Shown here one piece after another: positions 2,236 to 48,460 of a DNA stretch of 64,000 nt (position 1 is its first letter; every line of letters starts with the position of its first letter). The notes under the pieces are model-generated. The model ran no database searches and was not told the DNA's origin. It saw nothing but the letters and a program-made list of their open reading frames with translations. The stretch comes from Adineta ricciae (taxonomy: Eukaryota; Rotifera; Eurotatoria; Adinetida; Adinetidae): NCBI GenBank assembly GCA_905250025.1, contig CAJNOJ010000186.1, forward strand, positions 143,117-207,116, in the 5' to 3' direction. The position numbers and the translations under genes are program-made.

Positions 2236-2261
2236 CATGTGTAACGATAAAGAGGGGAGAG

Positions 2262-2638
2262 GTAATCGGTGTGAAGCTAGCACGAACAAACGATATGTTA
2301 GCTAAAAACGTTTTTACTAAATATGTCCCGTCCATGAAAACTACACCATTCGACTCAGAATTTAATTCTGCATCGAATGATGGTACTTTTATCCGCCGAA
2401 CAAACTTTGGAAAAATGTTTATCTATATCTTTGTTCGTTTCCTTCAGGTCTATTTATAATCCAGATAGAATTTTTCCAAAGCTTGTTCCGTGAGTAAAAG
2501 TACCATCATTCGATGCAGAATTAAATTCTGAGTCGAATGGTGTATTTTTCATGGACGGGACATATTTAGTAAAAAAGTTTTTAGCTAACATATCGTTTGT
2601 TCATGCTAGCTCCGTTGTGCTAGCTTCACACCAATTAC
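2262..2638. repeat. Inverted repeat with nested palindromes (possible MITE or fold-back element)
   Basis: The left arm (about 2262-2418) is the imperfect reverse complement of the right arm (about 2466-2638), with a spacer of about 47 bases. Each arm also holds its own hairpin around GCAGAATTAAATTCTG, flanked by TCGAATG-type half-sites. The right arm in copy A carries a short duplication (about 2605-2620) that is absent from the copy B arm. Arms of about 160 bp with no coding content suit a non-autonomous DNA element or a fold-back structure. No target-site duplication could be established by eye. Confidence 0.6.
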
Positions 2639-2874
2639 AAACGAGTAGTTTCGATAGGATATTCCTCTGTGGCTGGGCGTAAGCAATACGGAACCAACTG
2701 ACGAGCACGTTTTTCATTGGTAAATAAATGTCGACAGATACAAAAATGTCGATAGATGCAACTATGACTTCCATCGCTATTTGTTACTAACGAGTGATAC
2801 AATCGCACTGGTTCTATAGATACGGATAGATCATTGTAGGTTAGGATGATTATTAATAGAGATAGTAAACGCAT
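2635..2874 (-). CDS. Small secreted ORF, copy A
   Basis: This encodes 79 residues with a hydrophobic start (MRLLSLLIIILTY) that looks like a signal peptide. The remainder is short, basic and has three to four cysteines. Compared with copy B (26242-26463) it carries an in-frame 18-bp tandem duplication around 2735-2770, and the reading frame survives. Several amino-acid changes separate the copies, so constraint is weak. The stop codon touches the end of the inverted-repeat arm (2638), so the ORF may be the remaining first exon of a longer gene cut by that element. I do not recognise a family. An upstream ATG two codons earlier is not conserved in B. Confidence 0.35.
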   Translation of the reverse strand: MRLLSLLIIILTYNDLSVSIEPVRLYHSLVTNSDGSHSCIYRHFCICRHLFTNEKRARQLVPYCLRPATEEYPIETTRL

Positions 2875-3821
2875 CCACATAGTTTTTTTTCTAACAAATA
2901 AATGGTATATATTTGATTGTTGCGTTCTCTATGTGAAACATTTTCTTATAGAATTTCAGATACTTTATCCATCATATTTAGCAAACAAGAACTGTCAATA
3001 TAAATCGACACGAACAACATGTTTACATGCATTGTTCTAAATTCAAAAACTAATAGCATTGAATTTTGGTTACTTCACGCTGTAAAAATACATTTGACTG
3101 GAATTTCAGTTATTTCGATCTCCACTGTACATGTACACCCATTTTCATTAGGAAAGATAAATCGCGATGGCAGATCATGCTGTTGTTGAAAATAAAGTGC
3201 TCCATTTCTAGCCCAGACGGACAAACATTGAAAAGTACGGTGTTTCTGAGCGTGAAGAAATGCGCTTTTTACACTTGAAGATCTTTTTTCCTAAAAGCAA
3301 GCTAATGGAGACATACTTTATTGCAATCAGATAGATTTTTCTGACAAAAAACAAGTTTTTTTCCAGCGTAAAAAGCACACATCTTCACGCTCAAAAACGC
3401 CCTATTTTTAATGTTTGTCTATCTGGGAGTTAGCTAAAGATCTAATGAATTCCCAAGAGAATCTGGAACTAATCTACGCACGCTTCGATATATATATATA
3501 ATTCTGCAGATTGTAAAGAACCGTATTGACATTTGCCAAAGAAAAATCAAAAAGTACACTCAATCACTGAAAATTCATTGTACTTGAAATAATATGTTTA
3601 GAAGAAACTACGGCTTCGTTTTACCTCTAAAAATTGTGATTGAAGTTAGAAAAAAGTATTACTTCTAGCGGAAAATACGGCTTCAGACTTTTGTATATAA
3701 ACTGGAGATCTCGTGCTTCGTATACACGCATTCGTCTAACAATTGTCGACATTCCTATAATCGAGTAAGTGACGTATATATTCAAAATAGCCAAGTTTCG
3801 AGCGAGCTTCACAAGTTGCCA
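2875..3821. other. Intergenic, no gene seen
   Basis: AT-rich sequence between the small secreted ORF and the FG-GAP gene. No conserved frame is seen. About 92 bases (3720-3811), close to the FG-GAP start codon, are present here and absent in copy B, with a short GCTTC match at the boundaries. The two copies therefore have different proximal promoters. Confidence 0.6.
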
Positions 3822-5327
3822 ATGGATTCTTCTGTGCCGTCAGTGACCAAGACGTCACCTAAGTACGTGTTCTTTATGTTGTGTGCACCCTTTCATGGAA
3901 ATTGATTTTGCAGACCTAAATTGTCACGGACTATAACTCGAATCGCCATTTGCACCGCTCTAATCTTGACATGTATCATTGTTGCAATCGTGGCATATTT
4001 TCTTATTACTCGCCAGAACAATTCCTCATCAGACGGCGTTACAACTAACATTAGTACGAGTACCACCACTTCGCAAAAAGCATCAACTACTAACGAAGGT
4101 AACACTACACTGACTCATGTAGTGATAATGACAGATAGATGCCGATCGATTGAATATAGAATGCTTTAATAAATGTTTGTTTTAGTGGCAAATTCGACAC
4201 TCACTAATCCTATTTCGAATGCAACGTCGACCAGTTAGTATGCCTAAGTTTTCATTTATCTACTTGATATTTATGGTTTAGATACACAGTGTCGAGCGTT
4301 ACCGTTCAGCAGCTATCAGTCTTACATGACTGGTAGTAAACCTTGGTCGATTAGCATTACCGATCTGAACAATGATGATTACCAAGATATTGTTGTAGTT
4401 AACGCATATGATCCAAGCGTGACAATCTATCTCAATTATGGGAATGGAACAATCAGAAATACTTCGTTAATCATTGTTGGAACTTATTCCGTATTCGTTA
4501 CCGCTGCTGATCTAAATGGAGATAATACAACAGATTTGATCGTGGCACAAGCCTCAGCTAACAGCTTGGGAGTGTTGTTTGGTTTTGGTAATGGAACTTT
4601 TAATACACGTTTAAACATTCCTGTTGGTAATTATCCATACGGTGTAAATGCTGCTGATTTCAACAATGACAATCATCTTGACCTAGTTGCTGTCAACGAT
4701 TACGACAATACTGCTAGCATCTTGTTGGGATTCGGTAATGGAACTTTCCAGAGCTACAATCTTTTACCTACAGGTCTTTATGTAACAGCAGTTGTTACTG
4801 CTGATTTCAATAAAGATCAACGTTTAGATTTTGCAGCAACAGATTATTCAAGTAACACTGTAAGTGTATATCTTGGCTATGGCAATGGAAGTTTCCAACA
4901 ACGTCAACCATATTCAACAGGAAAAAGCCCATGGGGAGTAGCTATAGCAGATTTTAACAATGACAACTACACGGATATTGTTACTGCTAATTATGACGCT
5001 TCTACAATGAGTGTATTCTTTGCCAATGGTGATGGTACATTTCGATCGCAAATAGTTTATTCAACTGGGCCATATCCAAGATCAGTAGCAGTTGGAGATT
5101 TAAATGACGATACAAATATTGATATTGTCACTGGTAGTGGCTCTGGCAATTACCTGAGCGTCTTTCTAAACAATGGGGACGGTACATTTGCAAAACCAAT
5201 GAGCTTAACAACTGACGCACAAGTATCAGCAGTAGCGATTGGAGATTTGAACGGGGATAATCGTTTGGATATCGTCACTACTAGTGTATCGACCAAAACT
5301 CTAAATATATTTTTAAACTCATGCTGA
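3822..5327 (+). CDS. Membrane-anchored FG-GAP/VCBS repeat protein, copy A
   Basis: Four exons restore one 439-residue frame: 3822-3862, 3914-4098, 4186-4233 and 4282-5327, all with GT-AG introns; phases agree at each join. The N-terminus is short and basic, followed by one membrane helix (residues about 25-45), suggesting a type II anchor. A Ser/Thr-rich linker follows, then seven or so FG-GAP/VCBS repeats with the calcium-loop pattern D-x-N-x-D and the FGNGTF signature. Such repeats form beta-propellers, usually outside the cell, binding ligands or partners; the partner here is unknown. The gene has a distinct paralogue at 8171-9611 and a near-identical copy at 27304-28810. An AATAAA signal lies at about 5356. 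Confidence 0.85.
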
Positions 5328-6748
5328 ATCTTCGCTTTACTTTAGTTTAGTTTCAAATAAAAGCTTTCAAAAATCACCACAATGTAAAGGACACACCGTA
5401 GAAAATCTGATGTTCAAATCAAATCAATAGTAATAAAAATACAGTAGTACATCAAATATCAGAGTAAAAACTGCCAGCATGCGACACAAGCGAAAGTCTG
5501 CTTATAAAAAAGTAAGGTATACCTAACAGCTGCTAACTGTTTCACGCGTAAGATACTGTGCAGTCGGGATTGTCTATATCGAATTATGAATTAGAAGTCG
5601 CGTTAACAAGGATACCACGATGACGGTCTAGATAATTCGATGCACTCCAAGATATGAGTACTTGAGAAACAGTTAGACGAGACTTTAATCTGAAGCGTTT
5701 ATCTATATTCCACCTCATCACGAGAAATAAGGAACCATAGAATAACTGCATTAACCTTCTGCTGTATTTTATACACAAAATGAATATAAATAAACGACCA
5801 CTCTATAGAATAGTTCGACATTCTTAAAATCATAGCAGTTGCACGAGAAGTATAGAAAACGATTGTGTTTCGTTAAAATAATTGTATTTAACCTACTTCA
5901 AATCATGGAAAAGAGAAATATGAAAGGTTAATGAAAACTGCTAGACGATAAAAATAACAAACTGAACGTGTTGTTTCAAACATGGATAGATTATATCAGT
6001 AAAAAGAACAGAATATGATCTACAAATTCCATAAGAATTAACGTCGATACTTATTCTGTCTTGAATCATGATTCTCAATCGTGGAGAATGTAATTGACAA
6101 ATATTTTCTGACGTTATATGAATATCGACGAAGAAACAAGAAAACTACCTTTCAACCAAGATTTTAATCCAATAGGAAAGGGTGTATTTAATCAATAAAA
6201 ATGGTATATAAATAAACACAGAACAAACTTCGTCGATTTTTTTATCCGTTAGTGATTTAGTTCATTGCAACGACCTAAGCGAATTTTCTTGTGAGGAAAA
6301 GATGACCAAAGGTCTCTTTTTAAATACGCGCAATGTTTGCCCAAAGTTGAAAACAAAAATAACGAGTTTTCATTTTGCTCATAAATACGTGTTTGCTTCT
6401 AAAGTACTGAAATTAGATTCGTGATTGAAGATAGTTCCAACGTCAACAACGAATTTATTATTTGTTCGAAAAGTTTTCAATTCAGTATGAACAAAAAAAG
6501 AAATATACTATACTGTAAAAGAAAAATAATTTCTCTTTCTCAAACGAATAAAAGTGTAAATAGTAGAGAAGACGAAGAATGCCATAGGCATTTTATTTAT
6601 TTTATTTGTCATCATTTTTAATAAGACTGTCCAATCACTTGAAATGTAACATTACTTCCCTTTTCTGCACAATTGCGTTGTTCGATTCTTGAAATTGCAG
6701 TATAAAATCGCACACCCATTTTCGCTTCGTGTTCTCATTAGACATAAG
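5328..6748. other. Intergenic, no convincing gene
   Basis: AT-rich DNA with AATAAA signals and short unconserved ORFs. The segment 5401-5578 is replaced in copy B by 19 bases of GT-rich, telomere-like sequence (28884-28902). The ORF at 6421-6621 is not kept in frame between the copies. Confidence 0.6.
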
Positions 6749-6961
6749 ATGTCGCGTGATTCAGATTTCAAAGCAAACAACAGCTCGTCCATTCCCTCTC
6801 CTCCTGCCGAATGCAAAGTCTTAACTATCGTTAATCGTGTTCTTGATGCTGATGGTACAATCTTAAGTGTTGAATACGGAGAAGTTAGTTGTGAAGCATT
6901 GGCTCGAGATAAATTCAATTTTGCTTTCAAAAATTATTTCAATCGAAGCAAAACAAATTAA
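6749..6961 (+). CDS. Conserved 70-residue small protein, copy A
   Basis: A single exon starting with MSRD and ending in NRSKTN. The copy B version (30055-30267) has the same length and no indel. In both copies a one-base indel just upstream closes the longer reading frame, which fixes the start at this ATG. The centre reads like a beta-rich stretch (residues about 23-46) followed by a short amphipathic segment. No signal peptide or membrane helix is seen. I do not recognise a family. It sits 330 bases upstream of the 7TM gene on the same strand and could be an independent small gene. Confidence 0.5.
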   Translation: MSRDSDFKANNSSSIPSPPAECKVLTIVNRVLDADGTILSVEYGEVSCEALARDKFNFAFKNYFNRSKTN

Positions 6962-7288
6962 TATTGGAAACTATTGTAATAATCTTGATTTTCTTTTCCT
7001 GTATATAGTCAAGCGTACCACCGATGATTTGCAAATAAAAAGAGAAAACATTTTCTATAGATCAAATTCGATATCATACGTCGAAAAACATACAGTCCGT
7101 TCGATTCTGCCTAGAACGAATTCCTTTTCTTTCTCTGATTCACTATCAAAATATATCTTCTACATTGTTGTTTCTTCATCGTCATACTGTTGCCTTATCC
7201 ATCTCAGATAAAGAATCCTAAAACAACTACGAGAATATGTGTCATTAGAATATCTTTTTTTTCCTTCAAACACCTTCAACACATAAAA

Positions 7289-8086
7289 ATGAACGAATCT
7301 TTTGGATACCCATATCCAACTTACATTCCAAGTAAAACTACAAACGGTTGTGTTGCTGGTGTAGTCAGTATATCTTTGATCGCCTGGTTTATTCAATCAT
7401 GTCAAACACGTTTTCAACCAACTCGTATATCTGTTCTCTTACTTGTTTCACATATGACCATTTTCATTGAACTTATTGTTCGTGCAACGGTGCCTGCAGA
7501 AAAACAGAACTCGCGAACGGTTTTCGCTATTACCAATATGCTTTTTGCCATTGGTCAACGTATGATTATCGTTGGAAATTTTGCATTTGTTATGGAAATT
7601 CATCATAAAAAGTCACGTTTCATTCTTCTCAGTGCTATGCTGTGCGTTATCACATCGGGTGTGCTCATGGTACCAGCAAATATGTTAGCCTTCAAACCAG
7701 AAAACATCAGTACAAGTTACCTTTTCCGTGAATTGTCGGCTTCGGTTTTACTCATTGGCACAGTCGTTTTCTATCCTGTTTGGTACTGGAGCCGAACAAT
7801 CCATGACATGAACAGCAAAGCACTTGTTCTTATGTGTGTTTCAAGTATTATGTGTTTGACTGTTGGAATATTTAATCTTCTTCAATCGTTACAAGAATTC
7901 TACACGACAATTAACCATCATGAAGGATGGTTCTTCGGCTTTCAAATGGTGCCTATTATATTTGCACATTTTACCTGGTCAGCTTGTCATCCAAAACGAA
8001 GTTTAACTACAAATTCTGGATATGAAAAAGAAACACAACGTGAAGGACTCGCGATAGGTGAACATTTTCCAGAGAATACGATCTAG
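7289..8086 (+). CDS. Intronless seven-helix membrane protein, RTA1-like, copy A
   Basis: This encodes 265 residues with seven predicted membrane helices, around residues 18-34, 45-64, 78-104, 110-132, 145-170, 180-205 and 215-238. It has a short outer N-terminus and a hydrophilic C-terminal tail. Helix count, size and the PVWYWSR stretch after helix five resemble fungal RTA1-like or related lipid/stress membrane proteins, but this is a resemblance only. There is no intron, unlike its spliced neighbours, which fits acquisition from a fungus. The ATG chosen is the one preceded by AAAA and shared with copy B; an in-frame upstream ATG at 7190 is not supported. It converges on the FG-GAP gene at 8171 with 84 bases between stops. 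Confidence 0.6.
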   Translation: MNESFGYPYPTYIPSKTTNGCVAGVVSISLIAWFIQSCQTRFQPTRISVLLLVSHMTIFIELIVRATVPAEKQNSRTVFAITNMLFAIGQRMIIVGNFAFVMEIHHKKSRFILLSAMLCVITSGVLMVPANMLAFKPENISTSYLFRELSASVLLIGTVVFYPVWYWSRTIHDMNSKALVLMCVSSIMCLTVGIFNLLQSLQEFYTTINHHEGWFFGFQMVPIIFAHFTWSACHPKRSLTTNSGYEKETQREGLAIGEHFPENTI

Positions 8087-8170
8087 TGCGAAGAAGAGCA
8101 AGATATAGGACTTTATTTTTTGATGTTAATATCATTCAATTAAAATACATGTATTAGGTCTGTTTGAGAA

Positions 8171-9611
8171 TTAAATACATTCTGCTAGTAGAACAGCCAA
8201 TTTATTATTTTGTCTATTGAGTATCGCTATGTCATCTAGACCATCTTCATTGAGATCGGAGATGATTATCGATTTTAATGTTTGACCTTGTGATGAAAGG
8301 GACTTCACTGAACCAAATGTTCCATTACCAGTCCCGTAGTAGATTGTTATATTACCACCTTGATTACTAACAGCTAGATCAACGATCGAATCTGCATTTA
8401 AATCATGTATAGCAATGTCAATTGGATTTACTATGGATGTTGTATACGTATACATTGCATTGAACGCACCCGAGCCATCGTTAATGAAAACGTTGATTGA
8501 ATTCGAATAAAAATTACCCACAACAACATCGAGTACTGCATCTCCATTGAAATCTCCTGCACGAACGAGATATGGAGTTGATCCAGTCGAATAAATAGAC
8601 ATATTACTTTGGAATGTTCCGTTACCCAAGCCAAATAGGATGTACAGCCGATTGTTGCCACGACTAGCTACAGCTAAATCCATCTTTCCATCATAATTGA
8701 AATCACCGCTGGCAACTGATGACGGTAATACCAGAGTTGTCATCGATAATCCAGGAAATTGAAATGTTCCGTTACCGTTGTTCAAAAACACAGTAATCTT
8801 GTCACTACCTGTATTTGTCACGACTAGATCAGATTTCGTATCATTGTTCAGATCGACATTGATGATTGAAGATGGTAAACTTCCACCGCTTAAAAAAGTT
8901 GTAGGCGACGAAAACAATGAGCTGTTGCCATATCCAAAGAGAATAGAAATAGTATTAGATCCTTCGTTGCAATTCGCTAAGTCGATATTTCCATCACTGT
9001 TAAAATCACCAGCAGTCAACCAGTAAGGATTACTACCGTTTGTAGGAAAAGTCAATACATTTGCATCGAACGATCCATCACCTAAGCCTACGAAAACTGA
9101 CACACTTTGCGCGTCTGTGTTGGTCACCGCCAAATCGATATGGCCATCTTGATTGAAGTCGGAAAACACCATTGCTGTAGGACCTGCGTTAGTAACGAAC
9201 AGAGATGGCGGTTGCTGAAAATCATATGTAGTGCATGCTAAAACAGCACACAGATATACGTCGTAAGAAGCAATGGTAGTAGTCATTTTACTTACAACTC
9301 AATGTGTCATTATCCAGAGAAATCACATTTGTACTTTGGTTTGATGACATTCTTCGGAGCCAGGTTTGTTTTACGGATGCAGAAAAAAGTGAGCAAGTGT
9401 TATTATATCCGTAGTAGGTAACCGTACGGCATTGAGATGTACTCAAGCACTGACAAAGGCATTCATACTGCGAAGTGATGTTAAACAATGCATTTAACAC
9501 GACAGTTGTATTCGATGGTACCAATCGAGCATCTTTTATAATGATAATTTTTGTTGCTGATATAGATACACAGCAAGCAAGAAGAAAAAGGACTACTGGT
9601 TGCCAAAACAT
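8171..9611 (-). CDS. Secreted PAN-like plus FG-GAP repeat protein, copy A
   Basis: Two exons (9611-9296 and 9237-8171) join across a GTAAGT...TTTTAG intron of 58 bases to give 460 residues. A signal peptide (residues about 1-20, MFWQPVVLFLLACC) leads into a cysteine-rich segment (C-x-C-x3-C spacing, residues about 50-80) like a PAN/apple module. Six to seven FG-GAP/VCBS repeats follow, with DFN-x-DG-x-x-DL calcium loops. The protein is predicted to be extracellular and adhesive or ligand-binding. It is a diverged paralogue of the membrane-anchored gene at 3822-5327. The nearest ATG is used; an in-frame GTG two codons upstream is not needed. Copy B is at 31474-32917. Confidence 0.85.
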
Positions 9612-10112
9612 TCTCACTCTTAATCAGAACTCTCAAGTTATGTTCCTGAAAAAACTGCAAAAGGCACACTAAGAAGAAATAATTTCCGTATCTGTAATGG
9701 AATAATAAAAAATTTAACAAACCAAGAGAAAGACACGGAACACAATCAAGAGCCTACTATTTGTTCTTGTCGATTTTACTCAAATAAGAAAAAAAAAGTA
9801 CTGACTCGATCGATCGCATTCAGAGCACATCCCTTGTTGATATAGTCTTCAGACTTGCTGTTTGACAACTAACGTGCAAGAAAAGTGCATCATCGACTAT
9901 TTTTATGAACATAATAATAGTGTTGAATTGTTCTAGTTAATCGTTTCAGACTAATAAAAGTCCTTGAGCAACTTTTATGTTTTGATTTTAAAGAGGAAAT
10001 TACAGACTCTTCAAATATTACTATCTTCCAGAGAAACCACGCCAGACATTGATTACATTTTATTCAAGACTGATATATACTTAAGAAAAAGAGAAGAATA
10101 GATATAGATACA
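9612..10112. other. Intergenic, no gene seen
   Basis: Upstream of the PAN/FG-GAP gene and downstream of the DUF4326 gene, both on the minus strand. AT-rich, with no conserved frame between the copies. Confidence 0.6.
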
Positions 10113-10562
10113 TTATTCTGAGATTTTTTTCGCCGATTGTTGAATCTCTCGTTTGAATAGTTCACAAAGAATGTCACCATGGCATGGTTTCGGTTTACAC
10201 CAACAACCTAATCGTTTTCCCTCGAGCTCATGAAGATCATTGAGAAGATTATTTTCATTCGATTCGATATGTTTTCTAAATTTTTCTAATGCACCATCTC
10301 GCCCATATTGTTTGACAGAAAATGGATTGTGCCATTTACTTTGCGGAAGATTCCAGCCTCCCATGTTACAAGCACGTGCAATATAGACATCGCAATCTTG
10401 CACAACTTTGCCTTTCGCACGACGTAAATGAACAACAGTTGGTGGAACGGGAAGTACTGGTTGAGTTTCGTCAGTTGGCTTATCTAGTTTGATGAATTTC
10501 GAGCGAATATCGGTTTGACTATATTCAGTTTGTTTACGTTTGTTGCCGTTCGTTGACGCCAT
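10113..10562 (-). CDS. DUF4326 domain protein, copy A
   Basis: 149 residues. A basic, polar N-terminal arm (residues 1-55) precedes a DUF4326 domain: VVHLRRAKGK, the R-A-C-N-M-GGWNLPQSKWHNPF segment, a YGRDGALEKFRKHI helix and the closing GCWCKPKPCHGDIL motif. The conserved Cys and His residues in the last motif suggest a metal or catalytic site, but the family has no established function. It is common in phages and bacteria, so transfer is possible. The ATG at 10562 is preferred; an in-frame start at 10667 would add a low-complexity leader. It lies head to head with the S9 peptidase, 304 bases apart. The copy B version is cut at 33807. Confidence 0.75.
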   Translation of the reverse strand: MASTNGNKRKQTEYSQTDIRSKFIKLDKPTDETQPVLPVPPTVVHLRRAKGKVVQDCDVYIARACNMGGWNLPQSKWHNPFSVKQYGRDGALEKFRKHIESNENNLLNDLHELEGKRLGCWCKPKPCHGDILCELFKREIQQSAKKISE

Positions 10563-10805
10563 GTTACACAGAAATGAAGAAAAGAGGGAGAGAGAGAGCG
10601 TATGATGAGTCATATTTTGTAATTTCATAAGATGACGACATGTTATGCTATTCTTTTTTCTAAACATTTGATATACAGCAGAACAGTATCATTTGTAAAA
10701 GGTTAACACAAAATAAATCCATTCGATATATATCAGTCCTTCCGAGGACATCTCGATAATCTTATTTAAATATTAAAATATATCCGTTTGTTTGATATTT
10801 TCTTG

Positions 10806-10812
10806 TATAAAA
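10806..10812 (+). promoter_or_regulatory. TATA-like box upstream of the S9 peptidase
   Basis: TATAAAA lies 55 bases before the ATG of the S9 peptidase, inside the 304-base divergent spacer shared with the DUF4326 gene. Position and sequence suit a core promoter; this is inferred only. Confidence 0.4.
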
Positions 10813-10866
10813 ACCCACAATACCGAAGAAAATTGTATCTGGATATAACTGTAGAAATAAGATTCG

Positions 10867-12903
10867 ATGATTTTGATTATCTCTTTGTCGATCATCTTCT
10901 GTGTAGGTCAATCATTGCAGACGAAATCGAACTTGACATTGGATGATTTTTTCAATAACACCGAGTTTGCATCATTGAGTTTTTCTCCAACTGGTCAGCA
11001 TCTTCTCTACCAAACAATGCGTCCAGCATGGAACTCGAATGCGTACGAGTACACGCTTTGGGTCTATAACATCGATTCGTACAAGAAAACGTCTATTATA
11101 TCTACACTTGGCTATTTTCTCAGTCCAAGATGGTCACCAAGTGGAAATACCATTGCATTTATTCATACTGAATATCTCCTTTCGAATTCCACGGATGATC
11201 ATCAACGTTTATCGGAGAAGAGTTACTACATCTATTTCTATTCCGTTTTAACTGAAGAATTACATACCGTCGAAAATACACTCGAAAAACCATCGACGTT
11301 CGCTTGGTCTGATCAAGATTCGTCTCTTTTTTTAGTCACATCCACATCGAGATTTGTAAACAATGATGAAGACATTCTTCCATATCGAGAACGGATCAAT
11401 AATCATATCAGTACAATACATCGACTAGATTTCGATTGGACGAATGATCGACCATCATTACGCCAATTCACGCCGATCATCACCATTCCATTACGTCTCA
11501 GCGATTTTCTGTATGTTCCGCTAGAACAAAAGCTGATTTTTTTATCTACATCACCGTTGATCGATGATTTGAATAGCTTTGAAATCTATTCCATCGACCT
11601 ACGAAATCAGTCGTTATTGACACGATTAACGCATAATCAAGGCTTTGAAATAGGATTGCAACTATCACCGAGTGGAAACCATCTTCTGTTTCGAAATTAT
11701 ACACGCCGATCAAGTCGAACGATATTCCACGATACACAACGTCGATTGTACTCGTTAGATTTGGCCAACGGACACACCGAACGTTATGGTAGTGATTTTC
11801 TTGGCAATATCGTTGGATATGTACCGAAATCGGATGGTGGTGTTTACTTTCTTGGGCAGCACAAAACGAATGTTGGAATCTATACCCAACAGTCATTAGA
11901 AGACACAACGGTGCATCATCTAGGCTGGGAGGGTACTTATGAGCATATTTCATCATCCATAAATCGACCACAGGCGATTGCATTCGCTTATTCGTCATTT
12001 GATCGGCCTAAGGAAATTTACTACGTTGACGATATTAAACAACTGCAATTTGCCAAAGCAATTACAAATGAAAATCAACATCTTACTGAAAGAATCATTC
12101 CGAAAGCAACAGTCTATCAGTGGAAAGACGAGGTAAGTAACGAAACTATCGAAGGTATTCTTCATTATCCACCGGGGAAAGATCAAGAAGATAATCTTCC
12201 ACTTTTCGTTCTCATGCACGGTGGCCCTTATGATGCAAGCGTCAATTCATTCTTCGCTGGATGGTACACTTGGGCTCCATTAGCTGCTGCACATGGTTGG
12301 CTGGTTCTCGAACCGAATTTTCGTGGATCGTCAGGATACGGTGATGAATTTCTCGATGAAATCCGTCGTCAACCGCTAACGCGTTCAACACGAGATATCA
12401 TTTCAGGCGTCGATCAATTAATCAAAGATGGAATAGTTGATTCGAACAGATTGACCATTGGTGGTTACAGTTACGGCGGCTTTTTAACGAACTGGATCAT
12501 TACACAAACCGATCGATTCAATGCTGCACTTTCCGGTTCGGGCTCAATCGACCATACTTCATCTTGGGGTACAATGGATTTACCTGTGCTTTTCCATCAT
12601 CTATTTGGCGGATATCCTTGGGATGAATCCCATATCTATCAAACACAATCGCCGATCTTTCAATTAGATCGAATACGTACACCAACGCTGATCGTCACTG
12701 GTGAAAAAGACATTCGAGTCGATCCGGCACAGTCGTATATGTTAGAGCGTAGTTTACATTACCTCGGTGTACCTGTCAATTTGATTGTCTTTCCTGGTGA
12801 AGGCCATGAATTGAGTGTTAATCCGTGGCATGGTAAAATCAAAGTTCGAGAAGAATTGAAATGGCTACAGAAATATGGACATCGAACAGCTAAGTTTTAT
12901 TGA
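10867..12903 (+). CDS. Secreted S9 prolyl-oligopeptidase-family peptidase, copy A
   Basis: 678 residues in one exon. A signal peptide (residues about 1-17) is followed by a beta-propeller-like region (about 30-400, with SPTGQ/SPSGN blade motifs) and an alpha/beta-hydrolase domain (about 410-678). The catalytic triad is visible: Ser535 in GGYSYGG, Asp615 in GEKDIRV and His647 in GEGHEL. The HGGPY oxyanion segment and NFRGSSGYG are also present. The family cleaves short peptides, as DPP4-like or acylaminoacyl peptidases do; the exact specificity is not clear. A 2-kb intronless gene among spliced neighbours suggests foreign origin. AATAAA follows the stop. In copy B only the last 110 codons remain (33808-34140). 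Confidence 0.88.
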   Translation: MILIISLSIIFCVGQSLQTKSNLTLDDFFNNTEFASLSFSPTGQHLLYQTMRPAWNSNAYEYTLWVYNIDSYKKTSIISTLGYFLSPRWSPSGNTIAFIHTEYLLSNSTDDHQRLSEKSYYIYFYSVLTEELHTVENTLEKPSTFAWSDQDSSLFLVTSTSRFVNNDEDILPYRERINNHISTIHRLDFDWTNDRPSLRQFTPIITIPLRLSDFLYVPLEQKLIFLSTSPLIDDLNSFEIYSIDLRNQSLLTRLTHNQGFEIGLQLSPSGNHLLFRNYTRRSSRTIFHDTQRRLYSLDLANGHTERYGSDFLGNIVGYVPKSDGGVYFLGQHKTNVGIYTQQSLEDTTVHHLGWEGTYEHISSSINRPQAIAFAYSSFDRPKEIYYVDDIKQLQFAKAITNENQHLTERIIPKATVYQWKDEVSNETIEGILHYPPGKDQEDNLPLFVLMHGGPYDASVNSFFAGWYTWAPLAAAHGWLVLEPNFRGSSGYGDEFLDEIRRQPLTRSTRDIISGVDQLIKDGIVDSNRLTIGGYSYGGFLTNWIITQTDRFNAALSGSGSIDHTSSWGTMDLPVLFHHLFGGYPWDESHIYQTQSPIFQLDRIRTPTLIVTGEKDIRVDPAQSYMLERSLHYLGVPVNLIVFPGEGHELSVNPWHGKIKVREELKWLQKYGHRTAKFY

Positions 12904-12951: not shown

Positions 12952-13461
12952 TCATGCTTGTTTCTTTTTCAAATTATGAACTCGTTTTTCTGCCAAGATC
13001 TGCAATATCAACAATACGATTAGCAATCCTCCGATGATCGCATGATTGTCAGCGATTTCTCGTAGATATTTCTCTTTTGTTTTATCGTTTGCTTGAAGAT
13101 CAACCGAAATTGATTCAATCGACTTTTGAATTTTAAGGATGAAAATAGCGACAACTCCAAGAAACACTGGTACACTCAATGTATCATAAATTGTTCGTAC
13201 TATATTTCGAAGCATAATCAAAGCACCGATTAGTATCGGAGCGAGTGTCGTCAAGGAGGTGTACCACGGTTGACGAAACGCGTTTTGATAATACGAGGTA
13301 CATGTTTGCAATTGTTCGGACGAAAGAGACGTGGACACGAATAAATAATGATCACAGAACATATCGATTGCCAAAAGACCTGCAATGAACAGGATGAGAA
13401 ATGGAATGGAAAGAGACTACATACCCAGGACAAATGAAATGATACATGGTGCTAAACCCAT
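12952..13461 (-). CDS. Four-helix membrane protein with KKQA tail, copy A
   Basis: Exon 1 (13461-13425, 12 codons plus one base) joins exon 2 (13379-12952) across a 45-base GTATGT...TTGCAG intron, giving 154 residues. Hydrophobic segments occur at residues about 3-20, 52-72, 78-98 and 125-143. The C-terminus KKQA fits the KKxx signal that returns membrane proteins to the endoplasmic reticulum, so ER residence is likely. I do not recognise the family. Starting at the internal ATG would lose the first helix. It converges on the S9 peptidase, with 48 bases between the stops. Copy B (34188-34697) has the same structure. Confidence 0.7.
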
Positions 13462-17698: not shown

Positions 17699-18004
17699 AC
17701 TCGACAGAACGATTATGAAATAAAAAATTTTCATTTTCTTTCATCGTTGTCTTCACCAATCATAGTTAAGAATGAGTTTGTCGTTAAAGGTCGGACAGGT
17801 GTAGGTTTTCTTTTCGTCCACGTACGACACAGCACTCAGTACAGATTCTTTAGTGTGTGTTCGCATTACGCCACACACTGATCTATGAAAGGTAATTGAC
17901 AAATTTGCCCGACGTCATAATGACGCAAATAGCAACAACATGTGCTTTTTCGATGAAAGGACACATTTGCGTAAATAGAGTCTTATTTCATTCGATTATT
18001 ATCG

Positions 18005-18955
18005 ATGGGTAAGATTGTATTAACCGGTTCAACTGGTGCCCTTGGCTCGAGAGTTTTACGCTTTCTACTAAAGTTCGGTGTTGATCCAAAAAATGTGATT
18101 ATTTCTGTTTATAATCCTAATGGGGTCGATTCTCAAATAGAGAAGATCGTATTCGATGTACGTCATGGTGATTATAAGAACAAAGAAACACTTGAAAAAG
18201 CTTTTCAAGGCGGGGAAATGTTATTCCTAATTTCGTCAATTACAGTCAACAAGGAGCAACGAATTGAAGAGCATCGAAATGCGATTGATGCAGCTAGGAA
18301 TGTAGGTATCAGACATATCTGCTACACAAGTACGATCCTCGCAGATGCAGTAGACGTGGATATAATGAATGCACATTTGCATACAGAGAATTTACTGAAA
18401 TCCTCGTCGCTTAAATATACAATTATTCGTGAAGGTTTCTATTCCGAAGTGTTTCCGCTTTTTCTCGGACATTTCGATGCTAAGACGACTAACGAGATTG
18501 TTATACCAGCTGACGGCGGAATTTGTTTCGTTTCAAGGGATGATCTAGCTGAAGCAACTGCGAAAATATTAATCGAAACAACGGATATTTACGACAATCA
18601 AACTGTTGTGCTAACTGGTTCGAAAGCTTACACATTGAGGGAAACCGCTTCGATTGTTTCGAATGTCTTGAACCGTCATATCCCGATAAAAATTGTTTCA
18701 TTTGAAGAATACGTTGTTCAACATTCGAAAACTCATAATGAAGTATGGATGAAAATATGGGCTGAAATTCACCTGGCTGTACAACGTGGTGATCTTGCAC
18801 AGAGTGATATGACATTGGAGAGATTATTGGGACGATCGCCGAAAAGTTTCGAAGAAACTGTTCGAGAAATGTTAACGAACACCGAGAAGGACAAGGAGGA
18901 AACACAAATTAATAATCGGTATGTTCACGCATCGACAATCGACAATAAAGCTTGA
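18005..18955 (+). CDS. NmrA-like NAD(P)-binding protein, copy A
   Basis: 316 residues, single exon. The N-terminus VLTGSTGALGS carries the glycine-rich nucleotide-binding motif (Gly8, Gly11, Gly14) of atypical short-chain dehydrogenases. The body matches the NmrA/quinone-oxidoreductase-2 pattern: a LFLISS strand, a helix after HRNAIDAARNVGIRHICYTST, YTIIREGFYSE and a TGSKAYTLRETA segment. Such proteins are redox sensors or NAD(P)H-dependent quinone reductases in the cytosol; which one applies here is not clear. No intron is seen, and the family is rich in fungi and bacteria, so transfer is plausible. The copy at 39461-40411 differs at about 16 residues. Confidence 0.8.
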   Translation: MGKIVLTGSTGALGSRVLRFLLKFGVDPKNVIISVYNPNGVDSQIEKIVFDVRHGDYKNKETLEKAFQGGEMLFLISSITVNKEQRIEEHRNAIDAARNVGIRHICYTSTILADAVDVDIMNAHLHTENLLKSSSLKYTIIREGFYSEVFPLFLGHFDAKTTNEIVIPADGGICFVSRDDLAEATAKILIETTDIYDNQTVVLTGSKAYTLRETASIVSNVLNRHIPIKIVSFEEYVVQHSKTHNEVWMKIWAEIHLAVQRGDLAQSDMTLERLLGRSPKSFEETVREMLTNTEKDKEETQINNRYVHASTIDNKA

Positions 18956-19590: not shown

Positions 19591-22291
19591 TCAGAAAAGG
19601 GAAACACACGAAAAGCTGAAGAAGATTAACGAATGAGTTTGAAGGAATTTTTTTAAATGTAAATTTTCATCAAATGAACGATTGTGTAAATCAGTATAAA
19701 GAGCCCATGCAGATAAGTGTTGATTAACAGTGGAAGTACCGCCTGCTGCTGTTTTAGTCGTCATTTTCTGTGTCGGATTTGAAGTAGTAACAGAAGAATT
19801 GGATTTCATGGGTAAACTCGTACTTGTACCTAGATAATTGCTTCATTTCGACATTGTTTGTCAGAAAAAATGTTTCACTTACCTAACGCTGCTGATCCAT
19901 TTGTAGAAAGAGTTGATACCCCTGTTTCGATGTTCAAGCATGATGCTAATATGGAAAACAAGAATCTTTTATGACACTATTCAAATCATTCAAACATACC
20001 ACAAAGAAGGGCAAATTTCTGAATACGGTTGTTCGTAATATCAACAACGAGCACAGCTCCCGTTGAATCCAGTCGGAGGTTTTTTGGCTGATAAAGCTGA
20101 TTTGGCAGTACTCCAGCTGTTGAACTTCCAGCGACAACAGTACCATAACTCGCTCCTACCATCCATCTCATAATACGATCATTGAAAGTGTCCACAATGT
20201 ATATATAACCATTCTCATCTCCAACAACTGCTCCTGGATAGCACAGTTGATTGTGTCCATTATCGCAATTACCTGTTTGTCCTGCCACAGTTCTGCCACT
20301 GGTTGCACCCGATAGCCATCTTTGAATTCGATGGTTGTATGTGTCAGCAACATACAATGTATTTGAAGCACTCGAGTCGACGAACACTCCGAACGGGTAA
20401 TAGGATTGGCTTGCTCCTGCTCGGTAACTTCCACAAACAGTAGTACCTGTAATTGAAGAATTCCATCGTACAATGCGATGATTGCAAGTATCAGCTAGCC
20501 AGATGCTTGACGAATTCTTCGGTATAAATATTCCATAAGAACAACGAAATTGATTTTCACTGTTCCCATTTCCATTACCTCCAACAGCGATTGTTCCGTT
20601 GGATGCGCCAGGTGACCATTTCATGACACGAGCATTACCACTATCAGCAATGTACATATTACCGTTAGCATCTATACTCATAGCATCCACTAGAATCATT
20701 TTAACAGTACAATAGTAGTCTGTGCACAAGCCAACTTACTGCTATAAAACTGATTCCATCTCGTACCATAACTACCATTAACTACTGTTGTTCCAACCGT
20801 TGAACCCGGAAGAAACCGTTGCACTCGATAATTTCCTGCATCTAACACATAGAGTGTTCCATTTCGCTCTATAGCAATATCTGAAGGTTCAGTCAGAAGT
20901 GCTGGTGAATGTCCACTCCAGCCAGTGGGTGATCCAGCGATAGTCGTTCCATTCAGCGACCAAATAGTGTTCGACATAGGCGCTAGAACAAACGAAACCA
21001 TCAGTGATGATACTACTTGCAATTCAGCTATCTAAATCTGAAGTATCTACCAGATGTTGTTGCAGGCGAAACTGTTGTTGAGATATTCTGTGCCGGTGCT
21101 GAAACCAAAGAAAATCAATAGCAATCTTCATCCAAATATCAACAAGCGCAACTCACGACAAGATATAAGGAACTTCTGAATCCGATTATTTGCTGTGTCA
21201 GCAACATACAAAGATCCATTGGAATCAAAATCAATGTTCATGGGATCGTATAGCAAATATGCCGCTACACCGTAATATATGTCACCTGCAATAATCATTC
21301 CTGAACTTAAGCCAATAGCCCATTGAAGAATACGATTGTTATTTGAGTCAACAATAAACATATTTCGATTATTATCTAATGTGACTGATGTTGGGTACCA
21401 TAATTGATTGAGACCATTCCCATAATAACCTGTGAGTCCCGCTACCGTCGTACCACTAGCAGCTCCAGTTAACCATCTTTGAATGCGGTGATTAAATGTA
21501 TCCGCCACATAAAGTGTATTTGAGTTACTTTCATCAAGAAATACTCCAAATGGATAGGCGAACTGGTCGTCCTCAGCTCCACGACTACCGCAAACTACCA
21601 TACTACTTGTTGGTGAAGTCCATTTCACTATACGGTGGTTGCTCGTGTCAGCAATCCATATAGCTGAGGCGCTTGTATCCAAAAACATTCCACGGGAGTA
21701 GTACAGCTGGCTTGCATTATTACCCAAAGCATTTCCGCCAGCCACGACCACTCCAGACGACGCTCCTCGTGCCCATTTCGTAACACGAGCTTTACTACCA
21801 TCGAGTATGTATATATTGCCACTATTGTCGATACTCATGTCATCCACTGGAAAAACAAACAATACGTGCATATGATAAACTATTCACCAAAATCTACCGA
21901 ACTTATGATTATAAAACTGATTGAATGCTATGCCTGCACTACCGTTGACAATCGTTGTTCCAATGGTAGAATTTGGAGAAAAGCGTTGCACACGATAGTT
22001 GCCACTATCGAGCACATATATGTTTGAATTCTTATCAACACGTACGGCGATTGGAGAGTAGAGTGTTGATGCATTAGAACCTAATGTACCCGCACTATCG
22101 CCAGCGACTGTTGTTGCACTTTTTTGCCATGTTGCTGTTGGACATAACATGACACTTTTACCTTGATCAACAAAAAATCTAAATAATGTAAACGATGCAA
22201 TCCGTATTATCAGTCTCGTTCAATATCTCGAAGCTTACATAGTTACGAAGAATATCAAATTCCGTAAGTGTGCGAAACATAACTTGATCAT
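19591..22291 (-). CDS. Secreted NHL-repeat protein, copy A, with one mutated splice donor
   Basis: Eight exons read right to left: 22291-22239, 22178-21907, 21846-21157, 21098-21051, 20982-20740, 20689-20000, 19945-19883 and 19829-19591. All phases agree, giving about 765 residues. A signal peptide leads into two blocks of about six NHL repeats (exons 2-3 and 5-6), each with the YVADT-NHRIQRW signature, separated by a short Thr-rich exon and followed by a Ser/Thr-rich tail. NHL blades form beta-propellers; the protein is probably extracellular. The donor of intron 2 reads ATAAGT (21906-21901) where copy B has GTAAGT, so this copy may not splice correctly. The C-terminal end also differs between copies through a 1-bp indel near 19697. 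Confidence 0.75.
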
Positions 22292-25842: not shown

Positions 25843-26056
25843 ATGGCGTCAGCACCCAAAGAACTCGAACGTCATGGTCCGACAGAAGGCTTAAATTTTA
25901 AACGTTCTCAAGCCGAACAGTTATTCAAACATTGTCTGAATAAAAGAATCAGTTGGTATGAGCCAATCGAAGAGGGTTTGAATAATTTTCTTGCTTTTGT
26001 TGATTGCGAGAACGATACACAACGATACGTTTTAAAAATCCGTGGTGCGTGTTGTG
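25843..26056 (+). pseudogene. APH-family phosphotransferase, 5' fragment, copy A
   Basis: The first 71 codons match the start of the complete gene at 47378-48460 with one amino-acid change (N for T at position 18). The frame stops at the single N at 26057, after which the sequence is that of the left end of copy B. None of the kinase motifs is present. This could be a genuine truncation or a contig end; the latter seems more likely. Confidence 0.8.
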
Positions 26057-26057
26057 N
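26057..26057. other. Single-N junction between copy A and copy B
   Basis: One ambiguous base separates the APH exon from sequence equivalent to 2440. It marks an unresolved join rather than ordinary sequence. Confidence 0.9.
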
Positions 26058-26084
26058 GTTTCCTTTAGGTCTATTCATAAATCA

Positions 26085-26245
26085 GATAGAATTTTTCCAA
26101 AGATTGTTCGGCGGATAAAAGTACCATCATTCGATGCAGAATTAAATTCTGAGTCGAATGGTGTATTTTTCATGGATGGGACATATTTAGTAAAAACGTT
26201 TTTAGCTAACATATCGTTTGTTCGTGCTAGCTTCACACTAATTAC
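26085..26245. repeat. Single arm of the inverted repeat, copy B
   Basis: Matches the right arm at 2466-2638, including the internal GCAGAATTAAATTCTG hairpin, but lacks the 14-base insertion seen there. No left arm is present because the sequence begins at the N junction, close to the repeat centre. Confidence 0.65.
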
Positions 26246-33806: not shown

Positions 33807-33807
33807 N
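33807..33807. other. Single-N junction replacing 2047 bases
   Basis: To its left the sequence matches copy A up to 10523; to its right it matches from 12571 onwards. The lost segment contains the DUF4326 start, the divergent promoter and 568 codons of the S9 peptidase. Confidence 0.9.
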
Positions 33808-34140
33808 ACAATGGATTTACCTGTGCTTTTCCAGCATCTATTTGGCGGATATCCTTGGGATGAATCCCATATCTATCAAACACAATCGCCGATCTTTCAA
33901 TTAGATCGAATACGTACACCAACACTGATTGTTACTGGTGAAAAAGACATTCGAGTCGATCCGGCACAGTCGTATATGTTAGAACGTAGTTTATATTACC
34001 TAGGTGTACCTGTCAGTTTGATTGTCTTTCCTGGTGAAGGGCATGACTTGACTATAAATCCGTGGCATGGTAAAATCAAAGTTCGAGAAGAACTCAAATG
34101 GTTACAGAAATACGGATATCGAACAGCTAAGTTTTATTGA
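33808..34140 (+). pseudogene. S9 peptidase C-terminal fragment, copy B
   Basis: The last 110 codons of the S9 peptidase, beginning exactly at the N junction. The Asp (GEKDIRV) and His (GEGHDL) of the triad remain, but the nucleophile Ser, the propeller and the signal peptide are absent, so no active enzyme can come from this copy as assembled. Confidence 0.8.
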
Positions 34141-43681: not shown

Positions 43682-45016
43682 CGTAAGGAACTATTCCAAT
43701 TGCCTTTGGATGGAAAACAAAAAACGACTTCTTCTATATATACTCCTGATTGTTTTACTATTTTCTCATTAAAATATAAATATCGCAAGATTCGTTTACA
43801 CTGTTGATAATCCAGCATCTTTCCCAGACATCTTCTTCTCTGCTTTCTTGAACAAATGAATTTTCTTTTTTAATTAAATAAATATTCAATGTGACGCAGC
43901 TTCTATTATCGAGTTAAATGAGCGTAAGATATTCTTCTGAAAATCACACATTTTACAAATTTTTGCAATCATTGGTGATTCTTTAACAAAATCATTCTTT
44001 TTAAAAACAATCAAGTATTCAATTTCTAAATGATAATTATAGTTGTGAAGTGAAAACGATATCGACACTCTTGATAAGGATCCTTTCGTCGACGAGAATA
44101 TCATTTGAAAACCCGTTAAAATGTTATTCTGATAAGAAAAAAAGACATTCAATGTGAACGAACCATTGTTAAATAATTTCCTTTCATGATATACATCGTA
44201 AATAAAGTACAGATATTTTCTTCCAGCCGTCAATTTGTGTCTTTGTAAGAAAACTGAACATTGATTGCTAATCACCATATTTCAGACAAACGCTCAAAAA
44301 CCATTGAATTGTGATTGTCACAGAAAGAGAAAAGACAGGAGACAGTTGATGTTCCATTCGATGTATTCGCCGCGTTTGATGGACGTTCTTTCCATCACAT
44401 ATTCATTGTTTGACCAATACGGGATCATAATCATCCGATATGTTCATTATATTTTTGCACATGAGTTGAAGGTTAATTCTCTATAAGGTTGATAACACAG
44501 AACTATCCCGTATGTTTCAGAAGATCTTATTACAATCTATAGCTGTTTATTGGAGCGAAATTGTTCATTCAAGCGTTTATCTTAATCAAGCTTCGAATTT
44601 CAACAAGGATATTGCATTTATTCATGTGCGTTACAATCAGATGGACGGTGCCAACCTCGATCATTTTAATAGAGAATAATATACCTTCCAACTCACAGTC
44701 ATATGTTGGAAAGAATTTTTACTTCCAAATTTATTTTTGTATTGAAATCTGTCTTTACTGTTTCTTTTATGGGCAATAAAGTATAAACTTCAATAACAAT
44801 TCGCAAACAGAACACACGCACCATGCATGCCTTTTTATTTTCATTTGTATGTTTGATCAACAGAAGTATGGGAAAAAACCAACTTGAATAATGTATAGAT
44901 ATAATGCATAGATCACAATTTCTTTTCGACGCATAAAATTCTTTTACTTTGTACACCAACGCATGTTGATAAACTATTTCTACGCCTCTATCGATCGTAT
45001 TTAGTTTTTGGTCAAT
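43682..45016. other. Intergenic, no secure gene
   Basis: Equivalent to 22292-23593. The minus-strand frame at 44699-45043 corresponds to 23276-23695 but has diverged strongly in amino acids, so it is not called. Confidence 0.5.
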
Positions 45017-45893
45017 ATGAATAACCGTGAGAATCATGCACAAAGAATAAATTATGATACCACAAGTTTGACTGATTTGGGACGCGAAGAAGCGAATGGA
45101 TCGGGTAGCATTGATCTTGGAGAACAGGACGCTTCTGGTAAATTACGTAAGTATAAAAGATAATTGTATCTTCCACAAGATTGTGCCCCTGCTAAGATTT
45201 CCAAAACTGTGATGTGAAGAAGATCCTCTGACTTATAACCTTCTTTATTATAGTATCTCTGGAGATCAATCGTAAACTTGAGCAAATCAGACTTCGATAC
45301 GAGATACCAACTGATAAATGTTATCGTCTTCGTGCGCTGAAAGACTATGAGATAATCGTTATCGGCGATGATTCGGGATCTATGAATACAACTGTTGATA
45401 ATACTAATGTAACTCGATGGGATGAACTTCGCAACCTATTGAAGATCATCATCGAATTCGGAACAATATTTGATCCGAGCGGTGTAGACGTTTTCTTTCT
45501 TAACCGACCACAANNNNNNNNNNNNNNNNNNNNNNNNNNNNNNNNNNNNNNNNNNNNNNNNNNNNNNNNNNNNNNNNNNNNNNNNNNGTTTTATTCTTCA
45601 TCCCAACTAACGCTTTACCAACATATGATGATGGCTATCCGAATTTAGACGAATTCAAACGCGTTATTCGCGATGAGATCGATCACGAAAAAATACATAT
45701 TATGTTTCTACTCTGCACAGACGAACAAGAGAGCGTCGATTATCTGACGGCATTTAGGACTACTGTGCCGAATGTTCATGTTTGTGATGATTATGAAACA
45801 GAAAGACGAAGCATGCGTCATGTTTATGGCGGTAACTACCAATTCACGCGAACTGATTACTATATCCACGCATTAGTCAGTGCTATTACATGA
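45017..45893 (+). CDS. vWA domain protein, copy B, with internal gap
   Basis: Exon 1 (45017-45146) and exon 2 (45254-45893) match copy A, but Ns at 45514-45587 replace 132 bases that include the metal-binding threonine. Right of the gap the frame reads on to the normal stop if the gap is resized. There ATDG has become PTNA, removing the last metal ligand. The 110 bases after the gap are far more diverged than the rest of the gene. Confidence 0.6.
45514..45587. other. Assembly gap (74 N)
   Basis: Corresponds to 24091-24222 of copy A (132 bases), so the N count does not reflect the true distance. Confidence 0.95.
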
Positions 45894-46297
45894 AACAATT
45901 GACAGTCCTTTTCAATGTCTATCAAAACGATTCAATATTATTGTACCCGTTAAAGCGTTCTTAAACATTGACTTCTTTGTGAATTGTAATATTCCGTTCA
46001 TTTTCAGTCGTATTTAAGACATCATCAAAACTTATGTCATATTTTCGAAGTTTAAATACATCGTGAATGTAATAGAACATGAAAATAAGTGTGTTGACCA
46101 TACTTCGCATGCTTGGCAAACAAATCGTTTCTTTTTCTTTGAATAATATTATTCTTGACAACGGACGACAAAATTCCGTCGAAGTATTTTTCCTATTTCT
46201 TTTTAAAGCGCGTTAGTTTGCATTGTCGTTTCAATTCTCTTTCGGAGTGAACACATTTTTTCATTTTACCACACATCGAACAAATCTCAAAGAACGA

Positions 46298-46465
46298 ATG
46301 GGTAACTGCTGCAGCGGATTACAAAAAGATGGCAAAAATGGACCTCCACCACCTGATCGCCAATCAGGCCCGCCACCACCACCAGTACGCGGAAGAGATG
46401 ATGACAATAGAGGAGGTGATCCTCGTGGAGGTGGTCCAGGTCCTGCAGGCAGACAAAAAAAATAA
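46298..46465 (+). CDS. Small lipid-anchored, proline-rich protein (MGNCCS), copy B
   Basis: 55 residues. MGNCCSG and two proline runs are conserved with 24936-25100. One extra proline/valine pair and glycine-richer tail residues distinguish it. The upstream frame is closed, so translation must begin at this ATG. Confidence 0.6.
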   Translation: MGNCCSGLQKDGKNGPPPPDRQSGPPPPPVRGRDDDNRGGDPRGGGPGPAGRQKK

Positions 46466-47377
46466 GAAAAGCGACTTCGATTCTTGCTTTGGAACGGATT
46501 ACATTATATTTATTTATTTCTTGTGAAAGAGTTTCCCCTCCATATTATATTTGAATATAAATTTTATCTTAATAAAATTCTCTTTTCGAATGAATTTAAG
46601 GCGTCAGACGATTTTGCAAATATATTCAGTGACATGTGCGCCATATGCAAGATCAATACTGAACAAAACTGCTGAGTATCACGATATAAGATTTTTAATT
46701 GCATACTAGTTTTCTTTTTGAATGTGTCATAGGTTATGAATTCATTGTGGGTTGTATTTAAATGATCAGTATTTTTTGCCAATGATCAATCTGATTTATT
46801 GATCAGTAAAATCTGTATTTTGATCAGTATATTATTTTGTTACAAAACTATTATACATACCGCTTATCTTAGTAATTTAAGCAGGTTTTTACCGATTGTT
46901 GGCGTATCATAAACATCTCTGCTAATTCACGGAAATAACCCCTAGAGCTTAGGGATTACCTCCCCAAATATTGATAGAGCGTAACTCTGGTAAGGTTGCA
47001 GAGATCGTACGATGGGCACAAAACTATCAGACAATCTGAATCACACCCTCACCCACACCCACACCCTCACCCATGGTGAAAACGTCAACTGAATGCATAA
47101 CTATAGTTCAATTTTTACTAAGGACAAACTTCGTATGCAAAAAAAAAGAATATACCTCGATTTGAAAATGTCAATCACATTTGAAATGACATCTGTTCAT
47201 GTAAATCACTCCTAAATGTCGATAAGTAGGTTGGCAAGAGAACGGAGAAGGGATAATGGATATGTATAAGCCAATACAATTTCTTTCCATTCTGATAGAG
47301 AATAAAAAGAAGAGAAAATGGATACGATTGATAGGCTTGTCTCATAAGTATTTCTTCTCGTACGATTCAAGTTAGTC
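46466..47377. other. Intergenic upstream of the APH gene, copy B
   Basis: Carries about 97 bases not in copy A (about 46597-46708) and the telomere-like tract at 47041-47074. No gene is seen. Confidence 0.55.
47041..47074 (-). repeat. Telomere-like (TGTGGG)n tract, copy B
   Basis: On the minus strand this reads as about five units alternating TGAGGG and TGTGGG. It matches the position of 25531-25557 but with a different unit count and composition. Confidence 0.5.
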
Positions 47378-48460
47378 ATGGCGTCAGCACCCAAAGAACT
47401 CGAACGTCACGGTCCGACAGAAGGCTTAACTTTTAAACGTTCTCAAGCCGAACAGTTATTCAAACATTGTCTGAATAAAAGAATCAGTTGGTATGAGCCA
47501 ATCGAAGAGGGTTTGAATAATTTTCTTGCTTTTGTTGATTGCGAGAACGATACACAACGATACGTTTTAAAAATCCGTGGTGCGTGTTGTGAAAAAATCA
47601 AAACTGACTCCGAAGTTACCGCGATGGCGCTCGTTGCAAAACACACAACTTTACCGGTCCCGAGAGTGGTCGCGTATTCGTCCGACAAAACAAATGAATT
47701 CGGACTCGAATGGATTGTGATGACGCGTACCGAAGGCAAACCACTTCGAACATCGAGCCATGATAATGATATCTGGACGAAATTATCCATGGAAAAGAAA
47801 AAATTGATTATCGATGAACTTGTCGGTTATGTCAAACAAATCCATTCTCAGATACCATCAGCGCCGTTAATTGGAAATTACAAAGCTGATGGTACCATTG
47901 GATGTGATAATACTCGTAAAGGTCCGTGGAAGAATTATCGAGAGTATTTCAATGATCAATTAAAAGATAAAATCGAAATTTTGACAAATGACAACATTTT
48001 TGCACCGGTTCGCGCCGATGTACTTCAAGCAGTCAAAGAATTTCAAAGTTTAACTCTTCCGTCATTTGACGATCTACCAAATGTGTTTACCCACAATGAT
48101 CTTGGTTTGCAGAATTTAACGGTAACGGATGATTTACAAATTCGAGGCATTCTCGATTGGGAATGGTCAGGTTCGTATCCAATTGTCGAAGAATACTTTC
48201 GTTCGTACAAACCAATTGTGTATGATGAACAAACACGAACTTATCTGTTCGATCAACTAGACAAACAACAAATTCCGACTCCGCGAACAATACCACGGTT
48301 TTCACTGCTGAGAAAACTTTATGATTTACTACAAGCAATTGTACCATGGTATTTGACGAGTTTGGCCAATCCAGAGCACCCGACAGTGGAAAAAGAATTG
48401 ATTAAAAATCGAGATAAAGTGAAGCAACTTGTGAAAGAAATTCGAGAAGAATTGCAATAA
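47378..48460 (+). CDS. APH/ChoK-family phosphotransferase, complete
   Basis: 360 residues, no intron. The kinase-like fold of the aminoglycoside/choline phosphotransferase family is visible: an N-lobe ending in YVLKIRG (the ATP-binding lysine region), LPVPRVVAYS, the Brenner motif HNDLGLQN (His239, Asp241, Asn246) and the metal-binding LDWEWSG (Asp260). The substrate is unknown; family members phosphorylate small molecules such as choline, aminoglycosides or macrolides. Close relatives of this form are typical of fungi and bacteria, and the absence of introns fits transfer. The first 71 codons also occur at 25843-26056. The gene crosses the right edge of the duplication. Confidence 0.82.
   Translation: MASAPKELERHGPTEGLTFKRSQAEQLFKHCLNKRISWYEPIEEGLNNFLAFVDCENDTQRYVLKIRGACCEKIKTDSEVTAMALVAKHTTLPVPRVVAYSSDKTNEFGLEWIVMTRTEGKPLRTSSHDNDIWTKLSMEKKKLIIDELVGYVKQIHSQIPSAPLIGNYKADGTIGCDNTRKGPWKNYREYFNDQLKDKIEILTNDNIFAPVRADVLQAVKEFQSLTLPSFDDLPNVFTHNDLGLQNLTVTDDLQIRGILDWEWSGSYPIVEEYFRSYKPIVYDEQTRTYLFDQLDKQQIPTPRTIPRFSLLRKLYDLLQAIVPWYLTSLANPEHPTVEKELIKNRDKVKQLVKEIREELQ

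Follow-up and report, generated by a model that had tools for sequence, protein, structure and literature searches.

The two collinear, same-orientation copies that blastn self-comparison reveals in the window (the whole stretch of 64,000 nucleotides analysed here, which is the final 64 kb of the 207,116-base scaffold C186) are almost certainly two alleles, or haplotypes, of a single Adineta ricciae locus that the assembly appears to have laid end to end, and so an artefact. The original prediction had recognised two such copies, and in this it is borne out; it left two explanations for them. Strong support for a false joining of two haplotypes comes from the N between the copies, contig ends that overlap exactly, the copy order P / P'Q' / Q and four more such blocks on the same scaffold. 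For alleles really lying on one chromosome and preventing meiotic pairing we found no support. The copies and their boundary are as follows.

2431–26056, + strand: copy A (haplotype 2; the numbering is arbitrary), from blastn self-comparison, with 6.53% substitutions relative to copy B
26058–47591, + strand: copy B (haplotype 1), running into the right flank without an N, from blastn self-comparison and N-run positions
26057, unstranded: single N, the scaffold join between copies A and B, from N-run positions
33807, unstranded: single N within copy B, where about 2 kb of copy A is absent, from self-comparison, N runs and an assembly search with the missing piece
45514–45587, unstranded: gap of 74 Ns within copy B, from N-run positions
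294–357 (C186:143410–143473), unstranded: gap of 64 Ns with the same 224 bases on either side (70–293 and 358–580; 99.6% identical), an unmerged contig-end overlap, from self-comparison and N-run positions

These four are all the N runs in the window. The single N at 26057 sits exactly at the A/B boundary and is the kind of mark that scaffolding leaves; since this base is an N, the join is crossed by no sequence. The copies are thus separated by an assembly gap, as in false heterotype duplication, and the unbroken sequence over the junction that a real tandem should have is absent. The gap at 294–357 also breaks a piece of an AIG1-family gene at 2–292 (Pfam 29.7 bits, cut-off 27).

The ends of the contigs carry most of the information on how the copies came to be adjacent. 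The contig holding copy A (C186:138237–169172; 30,936 bases, 30.9 kb) is bounded by single Ns at 138236 and 169173 and has internal Ns of its own at C186:140749 and 143410–143473. Three features of the window belong to these ends.

1–26056, + strand: in-window part of the inserted alternate-haplotype contig (left flank plus copy A), from the bounding Ns and from its first 187 and last 161 bases, which match the outer edges of the other version exactly
26058–26238, + strand: first 181 bases of copy B, an exact match to the 181 bases directly ahead of the N at C186:138236 (C186:138055–138235), forming a contig-end overlap
25896–26056, + strand: last 161 bases of copy A, an exact match to 47431–47591, where the homology to B ends

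On C186 the 181-base overlap string has two occurrences, one before the N at 138236 and one after the N at 169173. The first 187 bases of the inserted contig are identical to C186:129678–129864 and its last 161 to C186:190547–190707, and these end matches are the two longest among 1,700 exact runs (mean 15.5) between the inserted contig and the flanking pieces, counted from alignments with an offset of up to 4,000 bases, a count that may include short overlapping stretches twice. Exact runs of 139–153 bases are also present inside the alignment; since internal runs reach 153 bases, long exact runs alone are no proof. When the flanking pieces are joined at their overlap and the insert is omitted, the resulting 30,311 bases are collinear with the insert over 28,083 columns. 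Given the exact end overlaps and this collinear alignment, the flanking pieces most likely belong end to end, and the inserted contig is most likely the locus in its other version, placed into a break between them. A second inserted contig, C186:99883–107349, shows the same three overlaps, with 148, 194 and 97 exact bases.

The same pattern extends along the scaffold, which carries 11 N runs in its 207,116 bases, with just 0.7% of its length lying within 60 bases of an N. Exact matches for the 22 ends of these runs were sought within C186 from 20 bases up: 14 ends match another place over 97 bases or more, and the other eight reach just 0–39 bases, a point against our reading. The N at C186:98502 has the same 221 bases on either side (100% identical), and at the N at C186:99882 a 224-base stretch recurs (98.7% identical). 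The scaffold carries five doubled blocks longer than 5 kb, and in all five an N run abuts a copy boundary.

C186:51994–71711 with 78919–98501: doubled block 1
C186:99956–107349 with 107351–114854: doubled block 2
C186:115215–121547 with 121716–127696: doubled block 3
C186:129678–138235 with 138237–145727: doubled block 4
C186:145547–169172 with 169174–190707: doubled block 5, which is copies A and B

The other four blocks (C186:51994–145727, including window positions 1–2611 and otherwise mostly outside the window) are about 6–20 kb long, each have an N run at a copy boundary and appear to be the same artefact. Two features of block 1 fit this less well: the inserted contig opens with 7.2 kb (C186:71713–78918) that lack a partner on C186, and the overlap between the outer pieces is inexact, at 98.6%. 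The left flank of copy A is the second copy in block 4: positions 560–2250 have a 95% copy at C186:136179–137869, so that this left flank is not single-copy, as it had been taken to be. The count of five covers blocks above 5 kb; C186 also carries shorter repeats whose copies are not separated by an N, and examples of these, which do not enter the count, are given here.

C186:6396–6875 with 10180–10659: shorter repeat, uncounted
C186:15353–15936 with 17868–18724: shorter repeat, uncounted
C186, 127.8–128.8 kb: local repeat cluster, uncounted
C186:193621–193825 with 196781–197420: shorter repeat, uncounted

The sole other sample, 40 kb read from contig C100 (GC 34.4%, against 36.4% for C186), contains a single N with a 225-base contig-end match 4 kb off, and no clean doubled block, which likewise counts against our reading.

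The order of the copies and the recurrence of the Ns bear directly on the possibility that the alleles truly stand in tandem on one chromosome, an arrangement that would block ordinary meiotic pairing and in which the N at 26057 would mark nothing more than a repeat left unbridged by short reads. The copies do share order and orientation, and their divergence is allele-like, as such a tandem would have it. However, the sequence is interrupted at the join, P / P'Q' / Q is unlike the PQP'Q' order of a single tandem duplication, the outer pieces share the exact 181-base overlap, and an N stands at a copy boundary in five of five blocks on C186; we consider a real tandem of alleles very unlikely. 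If, as we propose, two alleles were laid end to end by assembly software, their adjacency has no bearing on how the chromosomes pair, and the doubled block cannot be cited in favour of alleles on one chromosome.

What could have broken the assembly at this place is visible in the window and in its counterpart.

2262–2611, unstranded: dispersed inverted repeat, each arm about 160 bases long, counterpart at C186:137880–138239, from self-comparison, assembly search and N runs

Its haplotype-1 counterpart is the site at which the alternate contig is inserted. A 901-base query containing the inverted repeat gave at least 80 matches on at least 37 contigs, mostly 85–93% identical and mostly confined to the repeat, a lower bound because 40 of 322 candidates were scored; the repeat has the appearance of a foldback or MITE-type element. 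Such inverted repeats often bring short-read assembly to a stop. We infer the following course of assembly and scaffolding. In this highly heterozygous bdelloid, the assembler would have kept differing stretches of the two haplotypes as separate contigs and collapsed matching stretches into one. Haplotype 1 may then have broken at the dispersed inverted repeat into two contigs, one ending at C186:138235 and the other starting at 169174, whose ends still share the 181 identical bases. The scaffolder would finally have put the haplotype-2 contig (138237–169172) into the haplotype-1 break, which would yield the order P / P'Q' / Q, its parts separated by single Ns.

The reading of A and B as alleles draws on their divergence and on their copy number in the assembly (130.46 Mb in 1,033 contigs). 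Over 20,696 aligned bases, or 87.6% of A, the mean substitution is 6.53%, unevenly spread from 3.0 to 11.5% in 1-kb bins, and the segments of the chain in the self-comparison of the window are 82.5–96.4% identical with gaps counted, some of them just 82–88%, an unevenness that counts against the favoured reading. Chance likeness of the two copies is ruled out by the alignment scores. Thirteen selected ORFs give a dS of 0.129, a dN of 0.033 and a nucleotide divergence of 5.15%; they have at least 80 codons, no stop in B and dN below 0.6 dS, other ORF rows being dropped, which pushes dN/dS down. A looser pool (any length, dN below 0.5 dS, right offset) gives a dS of 0.1745 and a dN of 0.0499. 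The published median homologous divergence in A. ricciae is 4.6% (Nowell et al., 2018; PMC5916493), and the A/B divergence (6.5% substitutions; dS 0.13 in selected ORFs) is in keeping with bdelloid alleles. The identity observed lies at or below the lower edge of the 93–98% given beforehand; the call of allelic divergence itself holds, both from the 6.53% of substitutions and from a 93% partner of another part of the window on a separate contig.

That part lies in the right flank.

47592–64000, + strand: right flank, from contig matches in the assembly

Positions 55000–58000 have their 93% partner on contig C825, apparently the same kind of allele, not misjoined there. Nearer to copy B, positions 47592–50500 have one match in the assembly, themselves, and are therefore collapsed, homozygous or missing their partner. 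Two pieces of the block each occur at full length in two places of the assembly, all of them on C186, and one piece also has 18 partial matches, 63–79% identical, mostly to its NHL-repeat part. A and B thus show both properties by which we define alleles in this analysis, two copies in the assembly and allele-like divergence.

This copy number weighs against an old tandem segmental duplication, in which A and B would be paralogues, each with alleles of its own. The divergence does vary and is high in places, reaching 11.5% in one 1-kb bin, as old paralogues might have it, and each paralogue might be expected to have its own allele, yet the two block pieces show two full-length places each. The assembly does hold at least one separate haplotig of C186, while collapse of near-identical alleles could mask extra copies. 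Old paralogy would moreover explain neither the exact matches at the two contig ends nor where the Ns lie, and we regard it as extremely unlikely. Bdelloids also retain homoeologous gene pairs from their tetraploidy (PMC10665377), and A and B could in principle be such ancient homoeologues. However, the one homoeologous pair compared, a ligase of A. vaga in that source, has 68.5% protein identity, against the 5.15% nucleotide divergence of the selected ORFs here, and tandem placement would be unexpected, which leaves homoeology with a negligible probability, the smallest we assign to any reading.

Pfam scans of a subset of the block ORFs placed seven of ten stretches above cut-off in one set and three of seven in another. 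A tRNA search found no genes. The genes that matter for the argument, and matches above the Pfam cut-off in copy A, include these.

4248–5324 and 8174–9298: FG-GAP repeat proteins, copy A
10116–10535: DUF4326, copy A
12955–13416: SH3-type ER membrane protein, copy A
17978–18949: NmrA-like protein, copy A
19989–20735 and 21131–21883: NHL repeats, copy A
10861–12903, + strand: open frame of 680 amino acids, stop to stop, copy A, its last 110 codons matching peptidase S9
25846–26056, + strand: 5' part of an APH-family gene that is interrupted at the join, from open frames, its start in A being set by the A/B offset

It had been claimed that the copies share every gene; the copies are collinear and in the same orientation, but not all genes are complete in both. 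The 680-residue frame is truncated in B to its last 110 codons (33808–34137), beside the single N at 33807, and the APH-family gene is cut at 26056 in A, while in B its frame runs on from 47381 (Pfam APH match 47381–48400). Genes cut at both Ns (26057 and 33807) are to be expected from contig ends and from scaffold gaps of the wrong size. The stretch present in A only (10524–12570, about 2 kb) contains most of the peptidase-like open frame; since B has a single N at this site, missing sequence and a true allelic difference are indistinguishable there. In the assembly this stretch has no full-length second place, with partial matches of 68–76%.

The closest known parallel is what the Vertebrate Genomes Project termed false heterotype duplication, in which likewise diverged alleles are assembled as adjacent paralogues with a gap between them and genes are cut or doubled (PMC9516828). 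The cases in that source are backed by read depth and linked reads, whereas ours is built on contig-end overlaps and order, and comes from a rotifer. The marks of a false duplication named there are a gap between its copies, halved read depth and discordant pairs (Ko et al., 2022; PMC9516828). The 2018 assembly of A. ricciae likewise had homologous tandem blocks on one scaffold (PMC5916493), and its authors state that scaffold Ns lie within many of the breaks in collinearity, some of which may be errors of scaffolding (Nowell et al., 2018; PMC5916493). However, the account there is of two linked homologous blocks, both tandem, found via genes, whereas C186 alone, in what is seemingly another assembly, has five at the DNA level (PMC5916493). 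In the 2013 assembly of A. vaga, as described in PMC5916493, alleles also lay on one scaffold and were taken as evidence against meiosis, but they were mostly palindromes (23 of 25 blocks, with two tandem), unlike the tandem arrangement on C186 (Flot et al., 2013). Erroneous scaffolding can create artificial palindromes as well (Jaron et al., 2020; PMC7953838), and in A. vaga the amount of haplotype sequence that long-read assemblers fail to collapse varies (Guiglielmoni et al., 2021; PMC8178825).

Alleles on the same scaffold were once argued to speak against ordinary meiosis in bdelloids (as described in PMC5916493). C186 illustrates how such a pattern can arise, with five doubled blocks in 207 kb, every one of them having an N at a copy boundary. 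The chromosome-level A. vaga paper of Simion et al. from 2021 is said to report homologous chromosomes. If the rest of the present assembly is alike, gene counts, estimates of duplication and collinearity tests would be inflated unless haplotigs are purged.

The bdelloid origin assumed in the original prediction agrees with matches to the spliced leader. The query was the 23-base bdelloid spliced leader; it has no exact match in the assembly, and at up to three mismatches it has 46 places, 41 of which differ in the first base only, with none for a reversed control. The bdelloid spliced leader is thus present, bar its first base. Spliced-leader-like sequences often occur in divergent pairs, mostly about 150 bases apart (contigs C6, C8, C43, C77, C79, C99 and C146). 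The first 1.5 kb of C186:71713–78918 resemble stretches on eight other contigs, seven of which also carry spliced-leader-like copies.
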